NCBI GenBank assembly: GCA_002238645.1
Contig: MPMT01000008.1
Coordinates: 1-64,000 of the forward strand
Direction: 5' to 3'
From: Alphaproteobacteria bacterium bin52
GTDB lineage: Bacteria > Pseudomonadota > Alphaproteobacteria > Thalassobaculales > Thalassobaculaceae
DNA length: 64,000 bases
Below are positions 1 through 24,372 of the stretch, piece after piece; positions within the stretch are counted from its first letter, which is position 1, and each line of letters opens with the position of its first letter. The notes below the pieces were generated by a model, which ran no database searches, was not told the DNA's origin, and saw only the letters and a program-made list of their open reading frames with translations. Both the position numbers and the translations under genes were made by a program.

Positions 1-179
1 TCACCGTCCGAGCCCTGCTCAAATCCGGCCGCTTCGAGAGCGCCTGGAAGACCATGATCGGCGAGCACGACGCTCCGGCCAACGACAACACCAGCCTGAA
101 TCACACCCTGGCGCTGGTAGCCTGAAAAAACCGTGGGTGCTGCAACTACAACTGCCATGCGAGACTCGCACCCCGTAGC
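1..179. mobile_element. Right end of a probable insertion sequence interrupting the S8 protease gene
   Basis: The minus-strand S8 protease frame has convincing family sequence down to about position 179 (Asp-Asp-Arg-Asp-Arg-Gly followed by a Pro-Ser-Ala-Trp-Ser-Ala stretch) and then changes abruptly to unrelated sequence. On the other side a short plus-strand reading frame ends at 125, leaving about 50 bases up to the junction, which is the usual layout of an IS end (transposase stop, then terminal repeat). The other end lies outside the window, so inverted repeats and target duplication cannot be checked. IS identity is inferred. Confidence 0.5.
3..125 (+). CDS. C-terminal 40 residues of an unidentified protein, probably a transposase
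   Basis: An open frame enters from the left edge and ends in TGA at 123-125. The 40 visible residues include RALLKSGRFESAWK and end in HTLALVA. I do not recognise the family with confidence. Its position, just inside a point where the neighbouring protease gene is broken, makes a transposase the simplest reading. It is a fragment, so no domain or catalytic residue can be assigned. Confidence 0.4.
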   Translation, partial: TVRALLKSGRFESAWKTMIGEHDAPANDNTSLNHTLALVA

Positions 180-1421
180 GGACCACGCGGATGGCTGTCC
201 CCGATCCCGGTCGTCACGCGCTGTCACGGCCATGCCGAAAACTCTTCGTCGACCTGGAGCGGAAACTTCGGGCCGGCTTACAGCCTCAATGGTCAGCAGC
301 CCGTGATGGTTGGAATCGTGTCCGCCCGCACCGTCGCGGGGCAACAGCTTTACCGACTCCAGTCGATGCCGGATTTCTGCAGTGTCGTTGTTGCCAAGCC
401 AATCCGTCAGGTCGCCGAACAGAGCAAGTCCTGCCATCTGGGTGCCGTGCCCGTGTTCGTCTGCAGTTCCCCAGGCCGGCTCGACGGTATGCAAATTGCC
501 TGCAGCGAGCGTGGGTGCAAGGAGACGGTGGCCCCTGTTGACGCCGGTGTCGAGCAGGCAGACATGGGGCATCGTGTTGCCGTCGGGGGCGAACCGGGTT
601 CGCGCCAGCAGGTCGTCCAGCCATTCATTCTGCTCCTGAAACGTCAGGGTATCAAAGAAATCCGCCGTTTCCTTCGGCCGTCGCAGTTCAGCTATGCTGT
701 TGAGAGTGAGAATCGAACTGCTCATCTGGGAGAGGGTTGCGTGGACCAGAAGGACCGAGCGCTCGGGAAACCGCAGTTCTCCCTGCGAGACCATCATCTC
801 CTGATCTGCGGCAAGACGACGAAAGGAGCCAAGTACGTTCTCCCGTTTTTTCCGGACCGGAAGCCAGACCTCCCACCACAGGCATCCTTCATCTTCGGTC
901 GGAAACACCTTGGCATCGTCCGTCCAGAGCGCATGCAAGCTTGCCGCCCGAATCCGCCGGATGGTGTCAACCAGACGCTGGTTGTCGCGTGGTCGCCCGA
1001 TGCTGTCCTGTTTCTTGGACAGGTAATCGTGAACAAGGCCTTCGAAGTGTTCCAGCTTTCCATCAGGAACGAACACGGTCGCAAATGTACGATTCTCGTC
1101 CTGACGGACGTTCAGCAACTCGATACCAAGACGTTCCCTGGCAAGACTCTCGAACGCCAGTTCGATCTCCGGAAAGCCCTCGAATTCAACCTGGAGGCCA
1201 AGTTCTTCCTCAAGGCCTACGTCGCGTTGAAGCTCGGTTGTTACCGCTTCCTCGTCTCGCAACTCGTCGATCTGACGCAGCAGGGCGCTGCCATGCTCGG
1301 CTCGATCCTGTGGCGGAATCGATGCTGATCCTCCACCTCTGCTTCGAGCGCGGAAGGGCTCGGTTGCGGTCACTCCCTCAAGGACGAAGTGCCGGTATCT
1401 TCGGGCAGATCCAACTGTCAT
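176..1421 (-). pseudogene. ietS: IetS-like subtilisin (S8 family) serine protease, truncated by an insertion
   Basis: Reading the minus strand from ATG 1419-1421 gives about 415 residues with no stop: a long N-terminal region, then the S8 protease domain. The Asp motif LLDTGVN puts the catalytic Asp at residue 291, and HGHGTQMAG puts the catalytic His at 325. The frame continues with VFGMAVTARDDRDRG and loses homology near residue 415, before the GTS segment that would carry the catalytic Ser. The start lies 18 bases after the stop of the AAA+ ATPase gene, an arrangement known for ietAS pairs (plasmid maintenance in Agrobacterium, later listed among anti-phage systems). Without the Ser the product should be inactive. 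The name ietS rests on family resemblance and the neighbour. Confidence 0.75.
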
Positions 1422-1439
1422 GCTGCGGCTGACTGTCCC

Positions 1440-2432
1440 TTACTGCCCAACTCTTTCGTTCAACCTGCGGCAGATGGCCTTGCGTTCTTCGAGCGTGCGT
1501 GCGATGTCCATTCTCCGCACGCGAGCGCGTTGATTGATCAACGCATCCTTGAGCACCTCATCGGCGGCACGCGTGACCTCGGCATAGCTCAGTCCAAGCC
1601 CAGCCTCGCCCAGCCCCGCCCAGCGAGTGGCCTTCGCTGTGCAGTTCGCAAGTCGCATCTTCAGGAGCCTGGCGACTTGCGATTGATCGGGAAGTTCGTA
1701 GTGAAGCACGTCATCGAAACGCCTGAACAGTGCGGGATCCAGGAGATCGGGATGGTTGGTTGCGGCCATGACAATACTATGGGATCGATCCTGTTCGATC
1801 ATCAGCAGAAAACTGTTCAACACCCTGCGAATTTCGCCCACGTCGTTGGCGAGACCTCGTTGCGAGCCAACCGCGTCAAATTCGTCGAAAAAATATACGC
1901 CACGTGTTCGACCAATGGCATCGAATACCTGCCGCAGCTTGGCCGCGGTCTCACCCATGAACTTGGTAATGAGACCGTCAAGTCGAACCTGGAGAAGCGG
2001 CAGGCCAAGTTCACCTGCGAGCACGGATGCGGTCATCGTCTTGCCCGTACCTGAGGGCCCCAGCAAGAGCAGCTTGCGCCTCGGTGCAAGACCGTGCTCC
2101 AGAATTCGACCAGCATGTCGCTGTTCCCGGATGACACGCCGGATCTGATCGGACAGCTCTTTCCCCAGAATCATGTCTCCCAAGCGGGCCGTGGGGTAGG
2201 AATCCTCCAGCAGCATCGCCAACTCACCGCGAGGTCGACCGATTGGCACGGGAGAATCCAGGCCGCGCCGGCTCTTGGCATCGTCGATCATGGCACGCAA
2301 CTCTTCAGCGAGTTTGCCGTGACCGTGCCTTGCCTCGTGGGCAGCCACTTGCATTGCGACTGAGAAAAAACGGTCGTCATCACCTTCCATGTGCGCTTTC
2401 AGCAGTGCCTTGAGGTGTGCGGCGCTAGCCAC
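1440..2432 (-). CDS. ietA: IetA-like AAA+ ATPase
   Basis: A 330-residue single-domain AAA+ ATPase. Walker A is GPSGTGKT (residues 125-132), Walker B is FFDEFDAVG (181-189), and the sensor/arginine-finger region is ATNHPDLLDPALFRRFD (224-240). The roughly 120 residues before Walker A are helical and probably a substrate or partner adaptor. The start is GTG at 2432, because the nearby ATG at 2440 is out of frame. The gene begins 30 bases after the Mod stop and is followed 18 bases later by the S8 protease gene. In known ietAS pairs the ATPase is thought to control the protease, and the same is inferred here. With the protease broken, this gene may be an orphan. Confidence 0.85.
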   Translation of the reverse strand: MASAAHLKALLKAHMEGDDDRFFSVAMQVAAHEARHGHGKLAEELRAMIDDAKSRRGLDSPVPIGRPRGELAMLLEDSYPTARLGDMILGKELSDQIRRVIREQRHAGRILEHGLAPRRKLLLLGPSGTGKTMTASVLAGELGLPLLQVRLDGLITKFMGETAAKLRQVFDAIGRTRGVYFFDEFDAVGSQRGLANDVGEIRRVLNSFLLMIEQDRSHSIVMAATNHPDLLDPALFRRFDDVLHYELPDQSQVARLLKMRLANCTAKATRWAGLGEAGLGLSYAEVTRAADEVLKDALINQRARVRRMDIARTLEERKAICRRLNERVGQ

Positions 2433-2462
2433 GGCATGGTTTCCCGTGTTGCTCGGAAGACA

Positions 2463-5255
2463 TCATACCCTGAACACCTTCATCGCCTCGTCGCCGAGGT
2501 GATTGATGACCTTGACGGCGATGCGGCCGGAGGCGGGCCTGGGGAAGGGGCGGGAGGTGTCGCTGTGCAGCGTGGCCCAGGCGTCGGGGTCAATCTCGGC
2601 CTTCAGCGTGGTCTTCAGCGCCTTGTAGGGGTCGTTCGCACCCAGGAAGTAGGCGTGGCGGACGAAGAAACTCTCCTCGTTGTAGTCGGTGTCGACGAAC
2701 CAGCAGGCGATGCCGTCGGCGTCGGCGCTCCGCACCTCGCCGGTGTTGGGGTGGAAGATGTCGACGCCGTTGATCCTTACCCGAATGGTGTCGTCGCTTG
2801 CCGCCAGGATGTCGATGTCGGGCTCGCCGAAGATGACGAAGAGGTTGCCCTTGCCGGTGTTCTTGAGGTCGCCGGCCATGTGCAGGTCGGCATTCATGCG
2901 CGCCTTGAGCACCGGGATGCGCCCGAGCTTCTCGAACTCGGTTGCGTGGGCGTCGTAGCTGAAGGCGCAGGCGATCAGCACATCGAAGCCGGCGTCGGCG
3001 GCCTCGCGCGCGGCGGCCACCAAGTCGGGCCGCACGACGGTGCCGAACTCGGGCCCGATGAAGACGCCGGCCCGGCGCGTGGCGCCTTCTTCGCCGCCGC
3101 CCTCCACATAGCGCCCCTCGGCGCAGACATAGTGGCCGGGCCAGGGCGTGAGCGCGGTGAAGGTAATGCGGTCCTCCTTGTGCGCCTGCTGCACACCCGC
3201 CGTCCTGAGGTTCTCCAGGATCATCTCGGTGAAGTTCGGCGCCTCGCCATAGCCGAGCTTCTGGTCGGCGAGGGCGGAGAAGAGCTCGTCGTTCTCGTCC
3301 ACCGCCAGCATCCGGTGCGGCGCAAGGCTCTCCACCGTGAAGGGGCCGGCGACGCGGATGCGTGTGTTGTCGGCATAGGGCTTGTCGAAGAGATACTCGT
3401 GGTCGGCCTTGGCGGCGATGGAGGCGTCGATCTCCCTCTGCCGGGCGATGCGCGCCTCCCACCACTCGGCGTGCGTGGCCGTGGCATCGCCGGGCCAATC
3501 CTCACCCGGCTCGCGTGGGATTTCCCACTCCTCCCATTGCTGGCCGAGGGCGGCGTTGAGCCGGGCGCGGAGGGGCTCCAGGGTCTCCTGCCAAAGCTCC
3601 CAGACCACGTCGATCTCGGCATTGTTGGCGATGGATTTCAGGGTGATGTGCGGTACGCGCTCGTAGACGAAGCCCTGGCGGATGTCGCCGCCGGTCGGCG
3701 TCTCCGTAGGCGCGCGCTGCGTGATCTCGGCTTCCTTCTTCTGCCCGTCGGGGCTGTCGGCAAGCAGGTACCAAGGATAGCGCGCGCCCATGATGCGTGC
3801 CCGCGCCAGTGCGAGCGCCACGCGGGAGGTGTCGATGGTGATCCAGCGCCGGCCCCACTGCTCGGCAACAAAGGCGGTGGTGCCGGAGCCGCAGGTCGGG
3901 TCCAGCACAAGATCGCCGGGGTCGGTTGTCATCAGGACACAGCGTTGAATTACTCGTTCGTTGGTCTGAACGACATAAATTGCACCACTCGCTCCACCTA
4001 CATCTGTCCAAGACGACCCAAGTGGAATAACTGTTGAGTCTCCGAAGAATCGCTTAAGGTGGACTTGGTTTCCTTGCGTGAGCAGTCGTCCAGCCTTTCC
4101 GACCCGTTGAAGTCCCTCGACCACAACGCCCCAATGACGGCCTCTTCCCGGATGAAATGTCTTGCCGTTCAAGCTAAACTGAACAGTTGTCGTTTCTCGG
4201 AAACCATCAGACGTCAACGGGTACGAGCGCCAAATGAAATTTGGAGATATATCCTTAGATTTCACTTTGTTTCTTACTTCCTCTACCGGAATATCAACAC
4301 CGATATCTGCTTGATAATTTGTGTATCCATGCCCTCCCTTTCCATGGATTTCTCTTTCAAGAAAAAGAGAGCGGTATTTCATATTATCCGATCGACTGTA
4401 CCATAGCACATGATCGAAATTAGACTGAAGATGCTTGCCAGTTTGACTTCCCGTCTTTTGAACCGCAATGTTAACAACAAAATTATCCTCCCCAAACACC
4501 TCGTCCATGAGCGCCCGCACACGGTGCACATTCTCGTCGCCGATCTGGACGAAGACCGAGCCACTCTCGGTCAACAGGTCATGCGCCACGGTCAGCCTGT
4601 CTCGCAGATAGCTCAGGTACGAGTGGATACCGTCGCGCCAGGTGTCGCGGAAGGCTTTCACCTGCTCGGGCTCACGAGTGATGTGGGCAGCGTTGCCGTC
4701 CTTCACGTCGCGGCTTCTTGTAGACCACTGGAAGTTGGAGTTGAAGCGGATGCCGTAGGGCGGGTCGATGTAGATGCACTGCACCTTGCCGCGCAGTCCT
4801 TCGCGCTCCGCCAGCGAGGCCATGACCTGCAGGCTGTCGCCAAGGATCATGCGGTTCGACCAATTGGCGTCGTGACGGTAAAACTCGGTGCGCGCGGCGT
4901 CGTCTGGCAGGCCGTTGAAATCGGCGAAGAGGTTGGGCGTGGTGTGTGCCTCCTCCTCCCGCCGTTTCCTGGTCTGACGCTGCAGGTCGTCGATCAGGAC
5001 CTTGGGGTGCACCTTCTCCTGGATGTAGAGCGGCGGTGCCTGGACGACGAGGTCGGCCATGTCCTGCTCGTCCTTGCCGCGCCAGACGAGTTGCGGGTCG
5101 AGGTCGCGGTTGCGGCGCTCGTAGGCCACGCGGATCGGTGCCTTGTCCTTCTCCGCCATGATGGGGTGATATTCCGCGGTTGGGATGTTGCGCCTCGCCG
5201 CCTCGCCATGCGTGAGCGTCTCGACGGACTTGGTTTTCTTCTTGCGGCGTGCCAC
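2463..5255 (-). CDS. mod: Type III-like site-specific DNA N6-adenine methyltransferase (Mod)
   Basis: A 930-residue beta-group amino-methyltransferase. The catalytic DPPY motif (164-167) precedes the SAM-binding DPTCGSGTT motif (452-460), the order usual in type III Mod subunits, and DPPY indicates adenine as target. The interval between them (about 255-440) should be the target recognition domain and is visibly AT-richer than the rest. The C-terminal 400 residues are a long extension seen in large Mod-like proteins. The start is GTG at 5255, four bases after the DUF2283 stop. Together with Res, two genes upstream on the same strand, it should form a restriction-modification complex that needs Mod for recognition. 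The gene looks intact. Confidence 0.9.
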   Translation of the reverse strand: MARRKKKTKSVETLTHGEAARRNIPTAEYHPIMAEKDKAPIRVAYERRNRDLDPQLVWRGKDEQDMADLVVQAPPLYIQEKVHPKVLIDDLQRQTRKRREEEAHTTPNLFADFNGLPDDAARTEFYRHDANWSNRMILGDSLQVMASLAEREGLRGKVQCIYIDPPYGIRFNSNFQWSTRSRDVKDGNAAHITREPEQVKAFRDTWRDGIHSYLSYLRDRLTVAHDLLTESGSVFVQIGDENVHRVRALMDEVFGEDNFVVNIAVQKTGSQTGKHLQSNFDHVLWYSRSDNMKYRSLFLEREIHGKGGHGYTNYQADIGVDIPVEEVRNKVKSKDISPNFIWRSYPLTSDGFRETTTVQFSLNGKTFHPGRGRHWGVVVEGLQRVGKAGRLLTQGNQVHLKRFFGDSTVIPLGSSWTDVGGASGAIYVVQTNERVIQRCVLMTTDPGDLVLDPTCGSGTTAFVAEQWGRRWITIDTSRVALALARARIMGARYPWYLLADSPDGQKKEAEITQRAPTETPTGGDIRQGFVYERVPHITLKSIANNAEIDVVWELWQETLEPLRARLNAALGQQWEEWEIPREPGEDWPGDATATHAEWWEARIARQREIDASIAAKADHEYLFDKPYADNTRIRVAGPFTVESLAPHRMLAVDENDELFSALADQKLGYGEAPNFTEMILENLRTAGVQQAHKEDRITFTALTPWPGHYVCAEGRYVEGGGEEGATRRAGVFIGPEFGTVVRPDLVAAAREAADAGFDVLIACAFSYDAHATEFEKLGRIPVLKARMNADLHMAGDLKNTGKGNLFVIFGEPDIDILAASDDTIRVRINGVDIFHPNTGEVRSADADGIACWFVDTDYNEESFFVRHAYFLGANDPYKALKTTLKAEIDPDAWATLHSDTSRPFPRPASGRIAVKVINHLGDEAMKVFRV

Positions 5256-5258
5256 GGG

Positions 5259-5474
5259 TCAGCCGACCCTGGTCGCGCGCAGCGGCAACGCCTCGGTCTC
5301 CAACGTGGACAGATCGAGACGCCGGGACGCATGGTCGATGTCGAAGCCGACCACGTCGCCGGCGGCGTCGAGGTCGACGTTCAGGCCGTCCGAGACCTCA
5401 CGGGTTTCCACGCCCGGCCCCGCCTTGAACTCGACGTAGAGGCTGTCCGTCTCGGGATAGTAGTGGAGTTTCAT
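5259..5474 (-). CDS. DUF2283 family small protein
   Basis: A 71-residue protein beginning MKLHYYPETDSLYVEF, the hallmark opening of DUF2283 proteins, which are short beta-rich proteins of unknown function. Its ATG overlaps the stop of the preceding small gene (AATGA) and its stop is four bases before the Mod start, so it is translated as part of the restriction operon. Such proteins are commonly encoded next to a small partner of the type found just upstream here. A toxin-antitoxin or accessory role has been suspected for such pairs, but I cannot support it from sequence. The gene is intact although its partner is not. Confidence 0.75.
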   Translation of the reverse strand: MKLHYYPETDSLYVEFKAGPGVETREVSDGLNVDLDAAGDVVGFDIDHASRRLDLSTLETEALPLRATRVG

Positions 5475-5720
5475 TTCTCGTCCCTCTTAAGCCCTCGATC
5501 GAAGAAGGCGTTGTGGACCGTCTCTTCATCGGCCAGCGTCACCACACGCAGGATACGCGGCACATCTTCGTCGGCGCGCGACCTCGCCTCAGAAGCGGAC
5601 GCGGCCATCCGGCTGCACGTCACGACGAAGGGGCGCGGCGATGACGGCGGCGCACCACACCGGTTCGATATAAGGTCTCTTGCGTCGTACCTGCTCCTCG
5701 AAATAGCGCGTCGTCTTCAT
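5471..5720 (-). pseudogene. Small partner gene of DUF2283, broken by an in-frame stop and a frameshift
   Basis: The ATG at 5718-5720 overlaps the Res stop (ATGA). The first frame gives MKTTRYFEEQVRRKRPYIEP and continues to DGRVRF, then meets TGA. Past the stop, a shifted frame resumes recognisable sequence, DEDVPRILRVVTLADEET then VHNAFFDRG, and ends in TGA overlapping the DUF2283 start. As I recall them, intact relatives have a Trp where this TGA stands, so a TGG-to-TGA change plus a small indel explain the break. The intact family is a roughly 80-residue protein, often annotated as hypothetical or DUF4258-like, encoded directly before DUF2283. Function unknown. Confidence 0.65.
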
Positions 5721-8700
5721 GCGGCAGCATCTTCGAGAAGGAAGCCGCGGACAAGCTCGTCAAACCCGGCCTCGATCTCGTAGACGTCCGTGAACTCCGC
5801 GAAGGCCCAGCGGCCGAACGTGCCGAGCGCGTTCACGCCCGGCACCCAGTAGCTCTCCATCGTCCCCTTCTTGTCCTTGGCGTCCTCCCCCTGGTAGCCC
5901 TTGATCTCGACGATCAGGTGCAGCGGGTCGTCCTCGCCCCGCCCGTCGTCCAGAGCCACGATGAAATCTGGGACGTAGGTGCGCGCCTTGTCGCCGAGGC
6001 GGTACGGCACCTCCAGGCCAAGCCCGTAGTTCTTCGCGTATGCGCGGACGCGGGGATGCCCTTCGGCGACGCGGCAAAACTCGGCCTCCCAGTCGCTGTC
6101 GCAGACGACATGGTTGACATGGCAGCGGCGGGAAGAGGTTGTCCACAGCGTCTGCTTCGACGTGGTAAAGCGGACGTGGATTGTCGAGCCGGCAGGGTTG
6201 TATGGGTCGAGCACGGCCTTGACCGGGCGTTCGTCCAGGTGACGCTCGACGATGCCTCGCGTGATGCGCTCGCAGGCCATGTCCGCAAGCGTCAGATACA
6301 TGAGCTGCGCCGGGTACGTGCCGCCCTTGCAGACGAGGTGATTGTCGAGCCACTGGCGCGCGACGCGCTTGAGTTGACCGAACAGGTGCAGCTTCGGCTC
6401 TTCTCCTGGATCGCGCCACTTCGTCTCCAGCAGGCGCTTCGTGAGGTGAAACATAAGGGTCGAGCGCCGCAGGTCGCGGGTATGCACCAGGTTCAGATCA
6501 ACTCCCTCGCCGATGATGCCCTCGATGCGGGTAACGGAGGGGCCGACGAGGTTTGGCGTCAGCACCAGGGTCGAATCGTCATCGAAGGTCGCCTCCAGAC
6601 GCTCTTCTGGCAGCTCGACGCGGTAGCCTTGGACGCGGGGAAAACGGATTTCGCAACGGTCGCGCCCCGGGGTGATTGCCTTGACCTGCACCGTCTTGCG
6701 TGGCTTCTGCGGCGGTGCGACCACGGGCTTCGCCGTGAAGTCGAAGGGGATGCCGAGCACATCGGCATACTCGACAGGGAAGATGCCGTCCTCATTCAAT
6801 TCATACGATTGCCTGCGTAGTGAGCGGCCCACTGCTTGCTCACACAGGAGCTGCGTACCAAACGCGCGTACGCCCAGGACGTGGGTGACGGTGTTGGCAT
6901 CCCATCCTTCGGTCAGCATGGACACCGATACCACGCATCGGGTTTCGCCACCCAGTCGACCTTCCTTGCCGACGGTGTTCATCGCCTCGCGCAGCAGGTC
7001 CTGGTCTGACAGGTTTTCGGCGCGTTTCCGATCGCCGGTGCGTTCAACTATTTCGCGACGGAAGCGTTCGATTTCGTCGGCTGCCATCGTTCGGAAATTT
7101 CGGTCGAGTGCTTCTCCCGACTCAAGCTGCTGGCTATCGATGAGCAGGGTACGCGGGCGTGCGATTGCGTTGCCATGCTCGTCATAGTTTCGAAACAGCG
7201 CGAGGCGCCCGTTTTCGAGCGTAGTGGATCCGTCCGGGTTCTCCCGCTCGAATCCCGAGATGTAGTCGTAAATCAATTTCGAGGTGGAGGTGTTGTTGCA
7301 GATCACGATGAAGCACGGTGGCACTTCAATACCGGCCTCGTTCCAGAGCGCGAAGGTCTTCTCATAGTGTCCGTACAAGGCTTCCAACGCGGTTTGCAGG
7401 GTCACAGGGATCAGCAGTGGACTGAGTGAGCTTGAGTTTTTGCCGCGTCCCCTTTTTGGCATGTCCTTGCCGATATGCGCCCACAGGTTGCGGAACGTCG
7501 GCAAAGTGCCGCCGGGAACATTGTCGGCAACTGGGACTCGAGGCAACTTCACGATGCCGCATTCGATGGCGTCCATGAGAGAAAAGTCGCTCATGGTCCA
7601 TGGAAAGAGCGTTCCTTCGGCGTAGCCAGAGCCCCGCAGGAAGAACGGTGTCGCCGAGAGATCAACCACGCGAGCGAGTCCGAGCTTGCGCCCGACGGCC
7701 TCCAGCCCCGATATCCAGAGCCTTGCAGCCTCGCGGTTCTTCTCGGCCTCCTTGCGGTCGTCTCCCGTCAGTTTGCCCTCGTCGTCCTTTCCCGGGTTTT
7801 CCCGGTAGCAGTGGTGTGCCTCGTCGTTCAGGACCACCACGTTCCTCATGCCCATCAGCTCTGGCATGACGCGCTTGAGCATCTGGCCTTCTGTTTCCAG
7901 CGAACGGAGGCGGGGACCGCGCCCTTGAAGAAGCGCTCGTCCCCCCTTGGAAACCTCCATCGTCTCACGAAGTTTGAAGGCGTGAAAGTTTGTGATGACG
8001 ACCTTGGCGCGCTCAAGTTGTCCTAGCATTTCGCCAGGCACCAAGTCCTGGCTCCGGTAGTAGTTGTCCGGGTCATTGGGCTGGAGGACACGGAGCCGTT
8101 CCTTGATCGTGATCCCCGGGGTAACGACCAGAAAGCCTCGGGTGAACCGTCGGCTGTTGGGCCGGCGAACCGAATTGATCGTCTGCCAGGCGATGAGCAT
8201 GGCCATGACGGTGGTCTTGCCGGCTCCCGTGGCAAGCTTTAGTGCAAGTCGGACAAGTCCGGGATTTGCATCCTTGTTCGCTTTGTCGAGCTGCTCAAGG
8301 AAGCGCCGTCCCGTGTTGCCGAGACCAGGAGCAACCTCGGTCAGCCAGATGACCGTCTCCACAGCCTCCACCTGACAGAAGAACGGCCGAAACCCATCGG
8401 GCCGGTCGTGACGCCAGTGGCGAAGCAGCCTGGCCGTTTCTGGTGTGACTCGCCACTGTTTCGGGTCTTCCAGAACGCGCCAGTCATCGACCTGGTTGCG
8501 CACCTCGCTTATGGTTCGAGCGAGCTCATACTGTTGACCATCTGTTGCACCCCGCGGTGCCTGCTCATCAAGGAGCAGCGAGCCCTGTGAGCCTTTGCTC
8601 TTCTTCGAGGCGGGGATCGGCGTGATGAATGCAACATGGCGACGGCGGTTTACAATCCGATTGGTTGGTTGCCCGCTGGCATCGAGCTCCCAGTGCTGTG

Positions 8701-8761
8701 CCGGACGGTCATAGGGGGAGTTGAGGATCGGGCGATCGAAAAACCGAGTGACTGCTTCCAT
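5717..8761 (-). CDS. res: Type III-like restriction endonuclease helicase subunit (Res)
   Basis: A 1014-residue SF2 helicase-nuclease. Walker A is ATGAGKTT (177-184), the DEAH-like box is NDEAHH (312-317), motif III is SATPF (369-373), and SMLTEGWDANTVTHVLG with EQAVGRSLRR forms the C-terminal helicase motifs. A C-terminal PD-(D/E)XK nuclease follows (PDFIVALDD at 931, then VEIKGYQ with Glu952 and Lys954). It should translocate on DNA and cut only with the Mod subunit encoded downstream. It is the first gene of a minus-strand operon, and its stop overlaps the next start. All catalytic motifs are present, so restriction could be active. Confidence 0.9.
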   Translation of the reverse strand: MEAVTRFFDRPILNSPYDRPAQHWELDASGQPTNRIVNRRRHVAFITPIPASKKSKGSQGSLLLDEQAPRGATDGQQYELARTISEVRNQVDDWRVLEDPKQWRVTPETARLLRHWRHDRPDGFRPFFCQVEAVETVIWLTEVAPGLGNTGRRFLEQLDKANKDANPGLVRLALKLATGAGKTTVMAMLIAWQTINSVRRPNSRRFTRGFLVVTPGITIKERLRVLQPNDPDNYYRSQDLVPGEMLGQLERAKVVITNFHAFKLRETMEVSKGGRALLQGRGPRLRSLETEGQMLKRVMPELMGMRNVVVLNDEAHHCYRENPGKDDEGKLTGDDRKEAEKNREAARLWISGLEAVGRKLGLARVVDLSATPFFLRGSGYAEGTLFPWTMSDFSLMDAIECGIVKLPRVPVADNVPGGTLPTFRNLWAHIGKDMPKRGRGKNSSSLSPLLIPVTLQTALEALYGHYEKTFALWNEAGIEVPPCFIVICNNTSTSKLIYDYISGFERENPDGSTTLENGRLALFRNYDEHGNAIARPRTLLIDSQQLESGEALDRNFRTMAADEIERFRREIVERTGDRKRAENLSDQDLLREAMNTVGKEGRLGGETRCVVSVSMLTEGWDANTVTHVLGVRAFGTQLLCEQAVGRSLRRQSYELNEDGIFPVEYADVLGIPFDFTAKPVVAPPQKPRKTVQVKAITPGRDRCEIRFPRVQGYRVELPEERLEATFDDDSTLVLTPNLVGPSVTRIEGIIGEGVDLNLVHTRDLRRSTLMFHLTKRLLETKWRDPGEEPKLHLFGQLKRVARQWLDNHLVCKGGTYPAQLMYLTLADMACERITRGIVERHLDERPVKAVLDPYNPAGSTIHVRFTTSKQTLWTTSSRRCHVNHVVCDSDWEAEFCRVAEGHPRVRAYAKNYGLGLEVPYRLGDKARTYVPDFIVALDDGRGEDDPLHLIVEIKGYQGEDAKDKKGTMESYWVPGVNALGTFGRWAFAEFTDVYEIEAGFDELVRGFLLEDAAA

Positions 8762-21849: not shown

Positions 21850-22305
21850 GTGCGCCGTGGAAGGGAGTTGTCCCAGTGGGTTCAAGCTCCACCCAACCCT
21901 TGTCGCTTCTGTTGGAAGCAGCCAGAGCGCTCCACGGAGGTAACGATGTAGGCTGAGGCACACTGATGTCAAAGGGCCACCCTTTGGGCGGCTCAGCGAG
22001 CAAACAGGCCGGAACGCGAGTGAACGCTGAGCAGGTCTCGAAAAGGCCAATGCGGGAGCCGACCCTCATGAGAGTAGGGGAAAGCTGACGACGGTCCGGG
22101 AAGGCGAACGTCCGAAGCACCGGATCGTTCCCTCCGGGGCGGTGCACTGGTATGTTTGCGGGAGGGACAACCTAGCAGCACGGGGTACGCTAGGCGAACT
22201 GGTGGAACGTTGTTGGGTGAGAGCCCCGGCAGGAAAAGAAAGCAACCAACCACTTTCTCCGTGAATCATGCGTGGTTCTGATTTGAAGTCTGGAAATGAT
22301 GACTA
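21850..22305 (+). ncRNA. 5' fragment of a group II intron (mainly domain I), no reverse transcriptase
   Basis: The segment begins GTGCG, matching the GUGYG 5' boundary of group II introns. It contains runs I recognise from the 5' structured part of bacterial introns: GAAGCAGCCAGAG, then GGCTGAGGCACACTGATG, GCCGGAACGCGAGTGAA and GGTGGAACGTTG. These normally precede an intron-encoded reverse transcriptase and then domains V and VI. Here no reverse transcriptase and no domain V-like 34-mer follows; the next gene is mcrB. It is therefore a truncated intron that cannot splice on its own. The 3' limit is approximate. Recognition is by eye, without a covariance model. Confidence 0.5.
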
Positions 22306-22323
22306 AACTCGGGAGTTGAGTGT

Positions 22324-24372
22324 ATGACCAATGATGAAATTCTAGAACATTTCAGTTCTGATTCGGAATTTAGGGCAATTTTGGACCATTGGGGTCCGAA
22401 TTCAGATCTGGCGCGACGTTTCTGCAGGTTGGCCCGCGCCGTTCACAATGTCGGTCTGGATTGGTACCACGTGCAAGCGATGAGGAAGGCCCGATTCGGG
22501 CGCAAGAATCATGATAACCAAAATGCTCAATCCGTAGCGGGATACATTTCTGTGAGTGATAATAGTGTTCATATTAAGTCAAATGACACTTGGCAAGGAA
22601 CGGCAATCGAATCGATTCCATCAGATTATTATACGGTTCTTGATAACGCGCGGGTGCAAGAAATTGAAATTGAGCTAACAACAGAGTGGGACGGTATCCC
22701 ACATGATTTGAGAAGGGATAGTTCGAACGGGCCGCCAGGCGGACTGTGGCCCGATGAATATTTGGACTGTGAATCTGAATCCGGTCAGGATAATGACGCT
22801 CGTTCTGTTGAGGCCTCTCCTCACCATTCTCTCAACACGATTCTCTACGGTCCACCAGGTGCCGGTAAGACCTATGCCACGTTTCGACGTTGTGTGGAGA
22901 TTTGTGATGGAAAAAAATCGCTGAAAGACGAGGATGTTGGCGATCGCTATCGTAAACTCGTTAAAGAAGGTCGTGTCGAATTCGTCACGTTTCATCAGTC
23001 GTACGGTTATGAGGAGTTCGTCGAGGGATTGCGGCCTCAAACCGATACGCTCGACACAGAGGACCGTAGCAGTGCAGGTTTCCGTCTCCATGCAGAAGAC
23101 GGGGTGCTCAAACGCATTGCGGAGCGTGCTCGAAAAGTTCCCGCTCGGTCCGCAACGCCCTTTACCCTTGATCACCGGAGAGTATTCAAAATGGGTTTGG
23201 GAAACCCGACTGCAGCGAGCGAGCAAGGAATTTTTCAAGAGTGCGTTGACAACGGATGCGTCCTGCTTGGTTGGGGAGGTAATGTAGATTGGTCGGATCC
23301 AACCTTTGGTCAATACAACAATATATTGGAGCGATGGAAAATAGAAGACGACAGGGCGACTGGCTATGATTCAAATGTTAAGTTTATTCACTGTTTTCGC
23401 AACACCCTGACAAAAAATGACTTAATTGTTGTTCCAACCTCTCAACAAAGATTCCGGGCGGTGGGTGAAGTTACTGGAGCCTATGAGTTCAGTCAAAGAG
23501 ACGATGGTATTTATCCCCACAGGCGCAACGTACACTGGCTTTGGGTTGACACAGAGGGAACGCCGTTCTTGGAGATATATGATTTCCAAATAACGCCACA
23601 AACTATCTACCAGCTTAGCTCACAAAATCTAAAAAAAGATCGACTGATCCGCTATGCCAGCCGAACTGAAGAGTCCGTAAGCGTCCAACCTCACGTTCTG
23701 GTCATCGATGAAATAAATCGTGGCAATATTTCCAAGGTATTCGGTGAAGCAATTACTCTTGTTGAAGAGGACAAACGGGCGGGAAGTCCCAACGAAATTT
23801 CTGTAACCTTGCCGTATTCCGGCAAGTCCTTCAGCCTTCCGCCGAATCTTTACATCCTTGGCACGATGAACACGGCCGACCGGTCAATCGCGCTGCTCGA
23901 CACGGCGCTGCGCCGACGCTTCGATTTCGAGGAACTTGCGCCTAAACCCGAATTGCTTGAGGAAGCAGCGCGTGCGTGCAAAATCGACTTGCCCGCTGTG
24001 CTCAAAGCCATGAACGAGCGGTTGGAATGGCTGTTGAGCCGCGATCATCTGATCGGTCATGCCTGGCTGATCGCCGCACGTAGCAAGGAAGATGTTGACC
24101 GTATCATGCGGCGAAAAATCATTCCCATGCTTGCCGAGTATTTCCACGAAGACTGGAGCAGGGTCCGCGCCGTGCTTGGCGGAGGCAACGAGTTCATCGA
24201 AATGGAAAAGCTCGGCGCTCCGCCAGCAATGGACAACGCGGACATTGGCGAGGACCGGTATCGCTGGACAATTCGCGAGAACTTTTGGAAAGACGCGTAC
24301 CACCGTCTGATTACCGGCAAGCCCCGGCAGGCCGATTCAAGTGACGACGGCTCAGAAGTCGATAGCGCCTGA
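22324..24372 (+). CDS. mcrB: McrB-type AAA+ GTPase with an inserted EVE-like reader domain
   Basis: A 682-residue McrB subunit of a modification-dependent restriction system. The N-terminal 165 residues are unrecognised and may contribute to DNA recognition. Walker A is GPPGAGKT (176-183), followed by the McrB-type VTFHQSYGYEEFVEG (221-235). Residues about 283-446 are inserted before Walker B and resemble an EVE/PUA-like modified-base reader (LGWGGNVDWSD, FIHCFRNTLTKNDLIVVP, VGEVTGAYEF). Walker B is VLVIDEINRGN (458-468), and the McrB motor signature is MNTADRSIALLDTALRRRF (515-533). The start has GGGAG eight bases upstream. The first two thirds are AT-rich and the end GC-rich. It overlaps mcrC by 32 bases. 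Confidence 0.88.
   Translation: MTNDEILEHFSSDSEFRAILDHWGPNSDLARRFCRLARAVHNVGLDWYHVQAMRKARFGRKNHDNQNAQSVAGYISVSDNSVHIKSNDTWQGTAIESIPSDYYTVLDNARVQEIEIELTTEWDGIPHDLRRDSSNGPPGGLWPDEYLDCESESGQDNDARSVEASPHHSLNTILYGPPGAGKTYATFRRCVEICDGKKSLKDEDVGDRYRKLVKEGRVEFVTFHQSYGYEEFVEGLRPQTDTLDTEDRSSAGFRLHAEDGVLKRIAERARKVPARSATPFTLDHRRVFKMGLGNPTAASEQGIFQECVDNGCVLLGWGGNVDWSDPTFGQYNNILERWKIEDDRATGYDSNVKFIHCFRNTLTKNDLIVVPTSQQRFRAVGEVTGAYEFSQRDDGIYPHRRNVHWLWVDTEGTPFLEIYDFQITPQTIYQLSSQNLKKDRLIRYASRTEESVSVQPHVLVIDEINRGNISKVFGEAITLVEEDKRAGSPNEISVTLPYSGKSFSLPPNLYILGTMNTADRSIALLDTALRRRFDFEELAPKPELLEEAARACKIDLPAVLKAMNERLEWLLSRDHLIGHAWLIAARSKEDVDRIMRRKIIPMLAEYFHEDWSRVRAVLGGGNEFIEMEKLGAPPAMDNADIGEDRYRWTIRENFWKDAYHRLITGKPRQADSSDDGSEVDSA

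Follow-up and report, generated by a model that had tools for sequence, protein, structure and literature searches.

The 64,000-nucleotide stretch of DNA analysed here (the window), from Alphaproteobacteria bacterium bin52 (Thalassobaculaceae), opens with a compact group of genes in which a type III-like restriction-modification (RM) system is combined with an IetAS-like gene pair coding for an AAA+ ATPase and a subtilisin-type (S8) protease. The genes for Res, a DUF2283 protein, Mod, the ATPase and the protease lie on one strand (Table 1), in the order and with the families proposed in an initial annotation of the same DNA. Their junctions are as tight as described there: the ATG of a small gene and the stop codon of Res overlap by 4 bases, and the gaps that follow measure 3 (DUF2283-Mod), 30 (Mod-ATPase) and 18 bases (ATPase-protease). 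Res matches NF046055 with 1315 bits, against a cut-off of 800, and in Pfam it matches ResIII (31.3 bits) and, just below the cut-off of 23.4 bits, RE_endonuc (21.2 bits). Mod matches the PADLOC model MTase_III PDLC03632 (1345.8 bits) and PF01555 (113 bits), the ATPase the PADLOC IetA model (235 bits) and the half of the protease present in the window the PADLOC IetS model (43.5 bits). The small gene is decayed, as first reported: translation from 5720 runs into a stop after 43 codons, and the portion reaching DUF2283 is in a different frame.

Table 1. Genes and other features at the start of the window
Feature	Position	Strand	Description
Res, BPTD_3080-family restriction endonuclease	5717..8761	-	1014 amino acids, open; helicase motor and C-terminal nuclease-like domain
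Decayed small gene beside DUF2283	5475..5720	-	in-frame stop and frame change
DUF2283 protein	5259..5474	-	71 amino acids; PF10049 56.3 bits
Mod, type III-like DNA methyltransferase	2463..5255	-	930 amino acids, open
IetA-like AAA+ ATPase	1440..2432	-	330 amino acids, open
IetS-like S8 (subtilisin-type) protease, 5' half	177..1421	-	PF00082 54.8 bits
End of ISKra4-like insertion sequence within the S8 gene	1..176		contig edge

Base 1 of the window is also the first base of its contig, C87, and the proposal that the protease gene ends near position 176 has to be corrected: an ISKra4-like element interrupts the gene, whose remainder is found on another contig of the same genome, C52. Bases 1-176 match repeats of this genome on C75 (94%), C5 (93%) and C53 (93%, over part of the length). 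The copy on C75 encodes the C-terminus of an ISKra4-family transposase (NF033572, positions 346-421 of 422) and scores 90.9 bits, under the 205-bit cut-off because the match is partial. Positions 160-3517 of C52 carry protease residues 409-826 (in the numbering of the protease of locus L143, to which they are 75% identical), with the serine-motif half, as well as a UvrD-like helicase that shares 74% identity with its L143 counterpart. With its serine half on a separate contig, the S8 gene is therefore broken as assembled. A direct repeat of 6-8 bases is common to the two ends of the S8 gene and GGGGTGC to the two ends of the element; the element end on C52 had no match among the few other stretches compared with it. 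From these sequence features we infer that C87 and C52 join through the ISKra4-like element, and the full locus most likely reads Res - small gene (decayed) - DUF2283 - Mod - ATPase - protease (interrupted) - UvrD. The operon as initially drawn named genes that are indeed present and missed the UvrD helicase gene and the insertion. Because the protease gene is interrupted, the ATPase-protease pair is probably inactive in the genome of the window.

Relatives of the ATPase were sought in one genome per species (84,980 species) and the best 80 of the 501 found (590 stretches) were analysed, these being the best retrieved and perhaps not the closest in nature. Their neighbourhoods were mapped by tblastn with the window proteins, one full-length S8 protease and two UvrD proteins. 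A Mod gene lies upstream of the ATPase gene on the same strand in 25 of the 80 loci, at most 225 bases away in 23 of them and at 1.0 and 2.3 kb in the other two. When the loci are ranked by ATPase identity, Mod is linked in 13 of 21 at 70% or more, 6 of 14 at 66-70%, 3 of 8 at 64-66%, 3 of 15 at 62.5-64% and none of 22 below 62.5%. The notion that the pair nearly always occurs without Mod and Res, named beforehand as an outcome that would count against a composite system, is thus true of the wider family (where 25 of 80 are linked, as are 2 of 15 genomes with an ATPase relative in the class sample described below) and false of the nearest relatives.

According to record titles, the linked loci come from Pseudomonadota (10), Acidobacteriota (4), Thermodesulfobacteriota (3), 'Deltaproteobacteria', which the taxonomy tool mapped to Myxococcota (3), and Gemmatimonadota, Planctomycetota, Chloroflexota and Spirochaetota (1 each), with one locus unplaced. 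Because of this mapping and of the unplaced locus, the eight phyla are stated as at least seven. Linkage across at least seven phyla rules out an order restricted to one lineage and, since the order recurs elsewhere, it is no chance neighbourhood. The recurrence in unrelated hosts with intact genes that had been suggested as a check was also found, five copies (L117, L141, L154, L158 and L181) having all five genes, Res, Mod, AAA, S8 and UvrD, open; by this check the arrangement counts as a distinct unit. In four of these five the S8 and UvrD genes overlap by one base and in L181 they are one base apart.

Where it is linked, the pair keeps a fixed slot between Mod and UvrD. In 20 of the 25 linked loci a UvrD gene, in some cases fragmentary, stands no more than about 1.6 kb beyond the protease gene (in L136, which is missing the protease, beyond the ATPase gene) and in the same orientation. 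L157 has UvrD 9.5 kb away, and UvrD was not seen in four loci, three of which have less than 2 kb of sequence beyond the protease gene. An NYN-domain gene stands between Res and Mod in L141, and L128 has an insertion between Mod and the ATPase gene. Catalytic and binding motifs are well kept: the TSAA serine motif is present in 22 of the 23 linked proteases with a match and Walker A in all 25 ATPases, DPP[YF] in 10 and a SAM-site pattern in 9 of 10 open Mods, and Walker A with DEAH in 11 and ExKG in 10 of 11 open Res proteins. Among the 55 loci without Mod, no above-threshold Res, Mod or UvrD was found in the flanks available, which reach less than 2 kb upstream in five (L133, L142, L156, L182 and L184). 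S8 was found in 50 of these 55 loci, and a few have remote methyltransferase matches (74-99 bits) far from the pair.

Phylogenetic comparison points to joint inheritance of the pair and the RM genes. In a tree of 95 ATPases the linkage to Mod requires 8 changes, compared to a mean of 23 after shuffling, and none of 500 shuffles gave a value as low; the well-supported branches alone require at least 5 changes, and a well-supported group of 47 rows (44 labelled) includes no linked member. In a tree of 41 Mods, retained from 44 rows by a score and identity filter, the presence of the ATPase requires 3 changes as compared to 13 in shuffles. The five unlinked loci with short upstream sequence were left unlabelled in the ATPase tree, and L079 and L111 were excluded from trees and covariation as duplicates of L143 and L029. 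Both trees were built by a quick method from a set with long branches and settle neither the root nor the direction of gain and loss. Mantel correlations over the linked loci (10 to 23 loci per gene pair) are 0.91 for Res-UvrD, 0.85 for AAA-S8, 0.68 for Mod-UvrD, 0.67 for Res-Mod, 0.62 for S8-UvrD, 0.54 for AAA-UvrD, 0.50 for Res-S8, 0.44 for Res-AAA, 0.34 for Mod-AAA and 0.33 for Mod-S8. The picture is one of two tight sub-units, core and pair, which have long travelled together.

Res-Mod-UvrD is a recurrent core in its own right. Of 23 Mod loci from 22 genomes of an even class sample (the window's own genome excluded), 11 have UvrD downstream of Mod in the same orientation, 2 have it on the opposite strand and 10 showed none; in 20 Mod loci of a phylum sample the corresponding figures are 14 downstream on the same strand, 3 not seen and 3 in which the contig ends at Mod. 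The phylum sample holds 24 genomes with Mod, of which 20 were fetched; G000 is that of the window, sequence for G193 and G366 was already available and G520 was left out. Plasmids also carry the core, with UvrD downstream of Mod in 7 of 12 Mod plasmids. No AAA-Mod pair was found in the plasmid neighbourhoods covered (those of 6 among 1365 records with AAA and 12 among 33 with Mod). Phage records matching the ATPase number 152, the best listed reaching 48.8% on a 5-kb unannotated fragment. A rearranged core, with Mod ahead of Res and UvrD on the opposite strand, is seen in Tistrella pTM3 and a relative (L029 and L084).

Two slots of this core, Res-to-Mod and Mod-to-UvrD, accept exchangeable modules. 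Slot frames were tabulated for 53 loci and 25 slot proteins, chosen by hand and thus not a random sample, were scanned with Pfam; 10 of these 25 matched no family at an E-value of 0.01. The named contents include GmrSD_N in L032, a DrmD/BrxHII-like SNF2 helicase in L080 and L083, AAA_16 in L080 and L212, Bro-N in L212, HNH in L223, REase-ARP in L205, PIN in L217 and HepT in L143. The Mod-UvrD slot of L216 (11432-13114) is filled by HEC-07 (621 bits), a candidate defence family in PADLOC whose name derives from its embedding in Hma. A slot protein of L085, in one sequence cluster with that of L096, has weak HEC-05-type matches (55.5 bits), and an AAA_15/AAA_21 ATPase carried by L215 matches NsnB (93.5 bits), Old (63.2 bits) and GajA (54.0 bits). 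In L206 (12964-15469), on a Methylomagnum plasmid, Mod is directly followed by a CBASS pair, a cyclase (553 bits) and a phospholipase (343 bits), with no UvrD seen up to the edge of the record. Defence and toxin-type modules thus share the slots with unknown genes, and the IetAS-like pair is one of these modules. Outside the core, seven of ten flanking frames of the five open loci had no PADLOC match when scanned; the three that matched were two frames of L141 (PDC-M27A and ZacB/PDC-M27B) and one with an HNH model.

DUF2283 and its small partner form a pair between Res and Mod both in the window and in L101. The N-terminus of the small gene has relatives in L101 (84%) and L233 (78%), each adjoining DUF2283; L233 belongs to a genome of the same genus (G001) in which no BPTD_3080 Res match was found. 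DUF2283 also occurs with no match to the partner, downstream of Mod in L081 and, as a partial copy, upstream of Res in L115. The two genes look like a mobile two-gene module. Elsewhere in the window, positions 22001-24000 have a G+C content of about 50%, compared to about 65% around them, a possible recent insertion.

The UvrD-like helicase carries an N-terminal domain that is better conserved than the protein as a whole (78% mean column identity over 16 rows versus 64% over 18 rows). Pfam gave sub-threshold HigB-like matches in 4 of 5 rows (best 22.1 of 27 bits), the N-terminus of the L141 protein matched no Pfam family and, by phmmer at an E-value of 10, no PDB sequence, and a profile of the domain retrieved only RelE3 (E-value 0.073) and YoeB (0.52) from the PDB. 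The assignment was settled by fold comparison. Modelled with AlphaFold2 (pLDDT 89.6), the domain had 22 Foldseek matches at an E-value of 0.001 or below: 20 chains with toxin or toxin-antitoxin titles, and Helicobacter HP0892 and HP0894, titled conserved hypothetical. In VIA-align it scored Z 12.1 with YafQ (4ml0_B; 2.0 Å over 85 residues) and Z 8.4 with Cami1 (8phj, solved on the ribosome). The predicted fold is that of RelE/YafQ. Its 29 invariant columns in 16 rows, which include Arg, Asp, His and Tyr, are at most suggestive of a putative mRNA interferase activity. Helicase-type proteins are among the 50 matches listed by Foldseek for the model of the whole protein. Current annotations such as "3'-5' exonuclease" or "UvrD-helicase" mask this N-terminus (for example L030:14850-16943 and the UvrD proteins aligned with it).

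On balance, we lean towards a reading in which Res, Mod and RelE-UvrD make up the core of a modular restriction platform, and the ATPase-protease pair is a defence module embedded in it as a second layer. The same order in several phyla suggests that the two defences are passed on as a single layered unit and perhaps also work as one. Mod enzymes methylate DNA, Res enzymes cut unmethylated DNA and AAA+ rings feed or activate proteases. In this organism the enzymatic roles, the action of the pair as an effector and its tie to Res and Mod would most likely be as follows: Mod would mark self DNA and Res would cut unmarked DNA; the ring ATPase would sense some product of infection, or of restriction that has failed, and would feed or switch the protease; where restriction is not enough by itself, the protease would degrade proteins of the host or the phage. 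The initial annotation had offered two roles for the pair, second effector or safety device. The former fits better because the same slots hold other defence modules, the pair also occurs alone, and Res and Mod of the window are open despite the interrupted protease. A broader version, which we put forward only tentatively, is that Res-Mod-(RelE-UvrD) is an undescribed platform in which restriction forms the first layer and the RelE-helicase a built-in second, the two slots loading abortive modules (IetAS, HEC-07, GmrSD, toxins, perhaps CBASS) that would be fired by the state of Res and Mod. If this were true, one operon would deliver graded, pluggable immunity.

A number of observations weigh against the pair being part of a layered system. 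Two-thirds of its retrieved relatives (best 80 of 501) stand without Mod, and the pair therefore does not need Res and Mod. All but one of the linked loci (24 of 25) are contigs of metagenome-assembled genomes, some of them long (171 kb for L118 and 932 kb for L157), the isolate being Wenzhouxiangella sediminis (L141). All five genes are open in the sequence available for only 5 of the 25, a number lowered in part by the many contigs that break off within the operon, and those loci are confined to Acidobacteriota, Pseudomonadota and 'Deltaproteobacteria', fewer phyla than the linkage itself covers. The Planctomycetota and Chloroflexota loci have Mod fragments only, the Spirochaetota locus has no S8 and the Gemmatimonadota locus no UvrD. 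In the class sample (385 genomes), Mod occurs in 23 genomes and an ATPase relative in 15 at the thresholds used, the two being neighbours only in the window's genome and G100; their co-occurrence is weak and not significant (hypergeometric p 0.053). Among the 24 Mod genomes of the phylum sample (all but G520 covered, three with contigs that end at Mod) the composite was found in the window's genome only. Finally, the covariation of the ATPase with Mod is the weakest among the ATPase pairs (25 of 2000 permutations were as high) and could be explained by shared descent alone.

Defence genes gather in islands, and joint descent would also result from joint transfer if the pair simply occupied a permissive slot of a mobile RM operon and had no functional tie to it. 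The slots are indeed highly variable, pair and core are each found without the other, and ATPase-Mod covariation is modest. Against such hitch-hiking, slot, strand and order are constant across phyla, the junctions are short gaps or one-base overlaps, and linkage has been retained for long in ATPase lineages (8 changes against 23 expected); we regard it as unlikely. We attach an equally low probability to the safety device, a form of restriction alleviation in which ATPase and protease would unfold and degrade Res, or Res-Mod stalled on self DNA, at times of incomplete methylation of the host chromosome. There is a precedent in ClpXP, which acts on HsdR of type I systems (PMC12707154; PMC4231737), and a fixed position within the RM operon with joint inheritance is what such a device might show. 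The pair, however, is commoner without Res/Mod than with them (among the best 80 of 501 ATPase relatives, and also on the plasmids covered), most sampled Res-Mod loci are without it, Res and Mod of the window are still open though S8 is interrupted, and unrelated modules occupy the same slots in other copies. It is more improbable still that the pair is an unfoldase-protease that aids Res directly by clearing phage anti-restriction proteins, or phage proteins bound to DNA, and so letting Res translocate: the pair is placed between Mod and a DNA helicase gene and the best-matching solved structures for the ATPase are of the p97/Cdc48 type, but stand-alone pairs have no neighbouring Res of the BPTD_3080 family and none of the tests run indicates contact with Res.

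The field has yet to settle whether defences found side by side work together or simply occupy a common island. Here the same pair, slot and RM core recur across phyla, and stand-alone pairs and cargo-free cores serve as natural controls, so that coupling can be tested gene by gene. In addition, the slots offer a route to new defence modules, and RelE-UvrD is a candidate effector hidden by annotation.

In gene order and domains (AAA+ then S8) the pair resembles ietAS, reportedly shown by Gao et al. in 2020 to protect E. coli from phages, and the open S8 protein of L143 matches PADLOC IetS with 121 bits. It differs in scores far under the NCBIfam equivalog cut-offs (189.6 of 510 bits with IteA for the window ATPase; 68.5 of 900 with IteS for the L143 protease) and in its location inside an RM operon, between Mod and UvrD. 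Because of these scores it is named IetAS-like and not equated with the characterised pair. Like type III RM systems of the EcoP15I kind, the host operon has a Mod that matches type III models and solved Mods including that of EcoP15I, and a helicase-nuclease Res by motifs and family. It differs from them in that Res matches PADLOC REase_III weakly (22 bits), Res precedes Mod, Mod has 930 amino acids and the core includes a UvrD gene; no solved PDB chain matched Res at an E-value of 0.01.

The UvrD-like protein matches GajB models of Gabija (74.7 bits) and differs in its RelE-fold N-terminal domain. A role as part of a Gabija system was not supported, no GajA being seen in the slots or in the 10 flanking frames of the five open loci. 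A RelE fold in an immune protein is shared with Cami1, which has an immune role and is bound by cA4 (cyclic tetra-adenylate), its RelE-like part being partnered with a cyclic-oligoadenylate sensor domain; the partner of the RelE fold here is a UvrD helicase. Hma found no support either: at an E-value of 0.01 none of its models is matched by the window's Res, AAA or S8, and none appears among the best 25 of 54 families for Mod or the best 25 of 34 for UvrD.

Embedded defences are known as GmrSD-like HEC families in Hma and as TgvAB and DarTG2 in type I RM systems of V. cholerae and E. coli (PMC11411939; PMC12255303). As in those cases, one system lies inside the operon of another, and a family of that series, HEC-07, is also found in a slot here; the differences are the host, a type III-like RM system with RelE-UvrD and two slots, and the IetAS-like cargo. 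In the portions of the open-licence PMC literature covered, we found no account of IetAS-like pairs in type III-like RM systems, of a Res-Mod-UvrD core with slots or of RelE-UvrD fusions; word searches gave no ietAS or subtilisin in PMC12839542 and PMC13092281, and no ietAS or stem 'subtil' in PMC8565338. As far as these sources extend, embedding itself has already been published, for type I RM and Hma, and an IetAS-like cargo in a type III-like RM system appears to be new.

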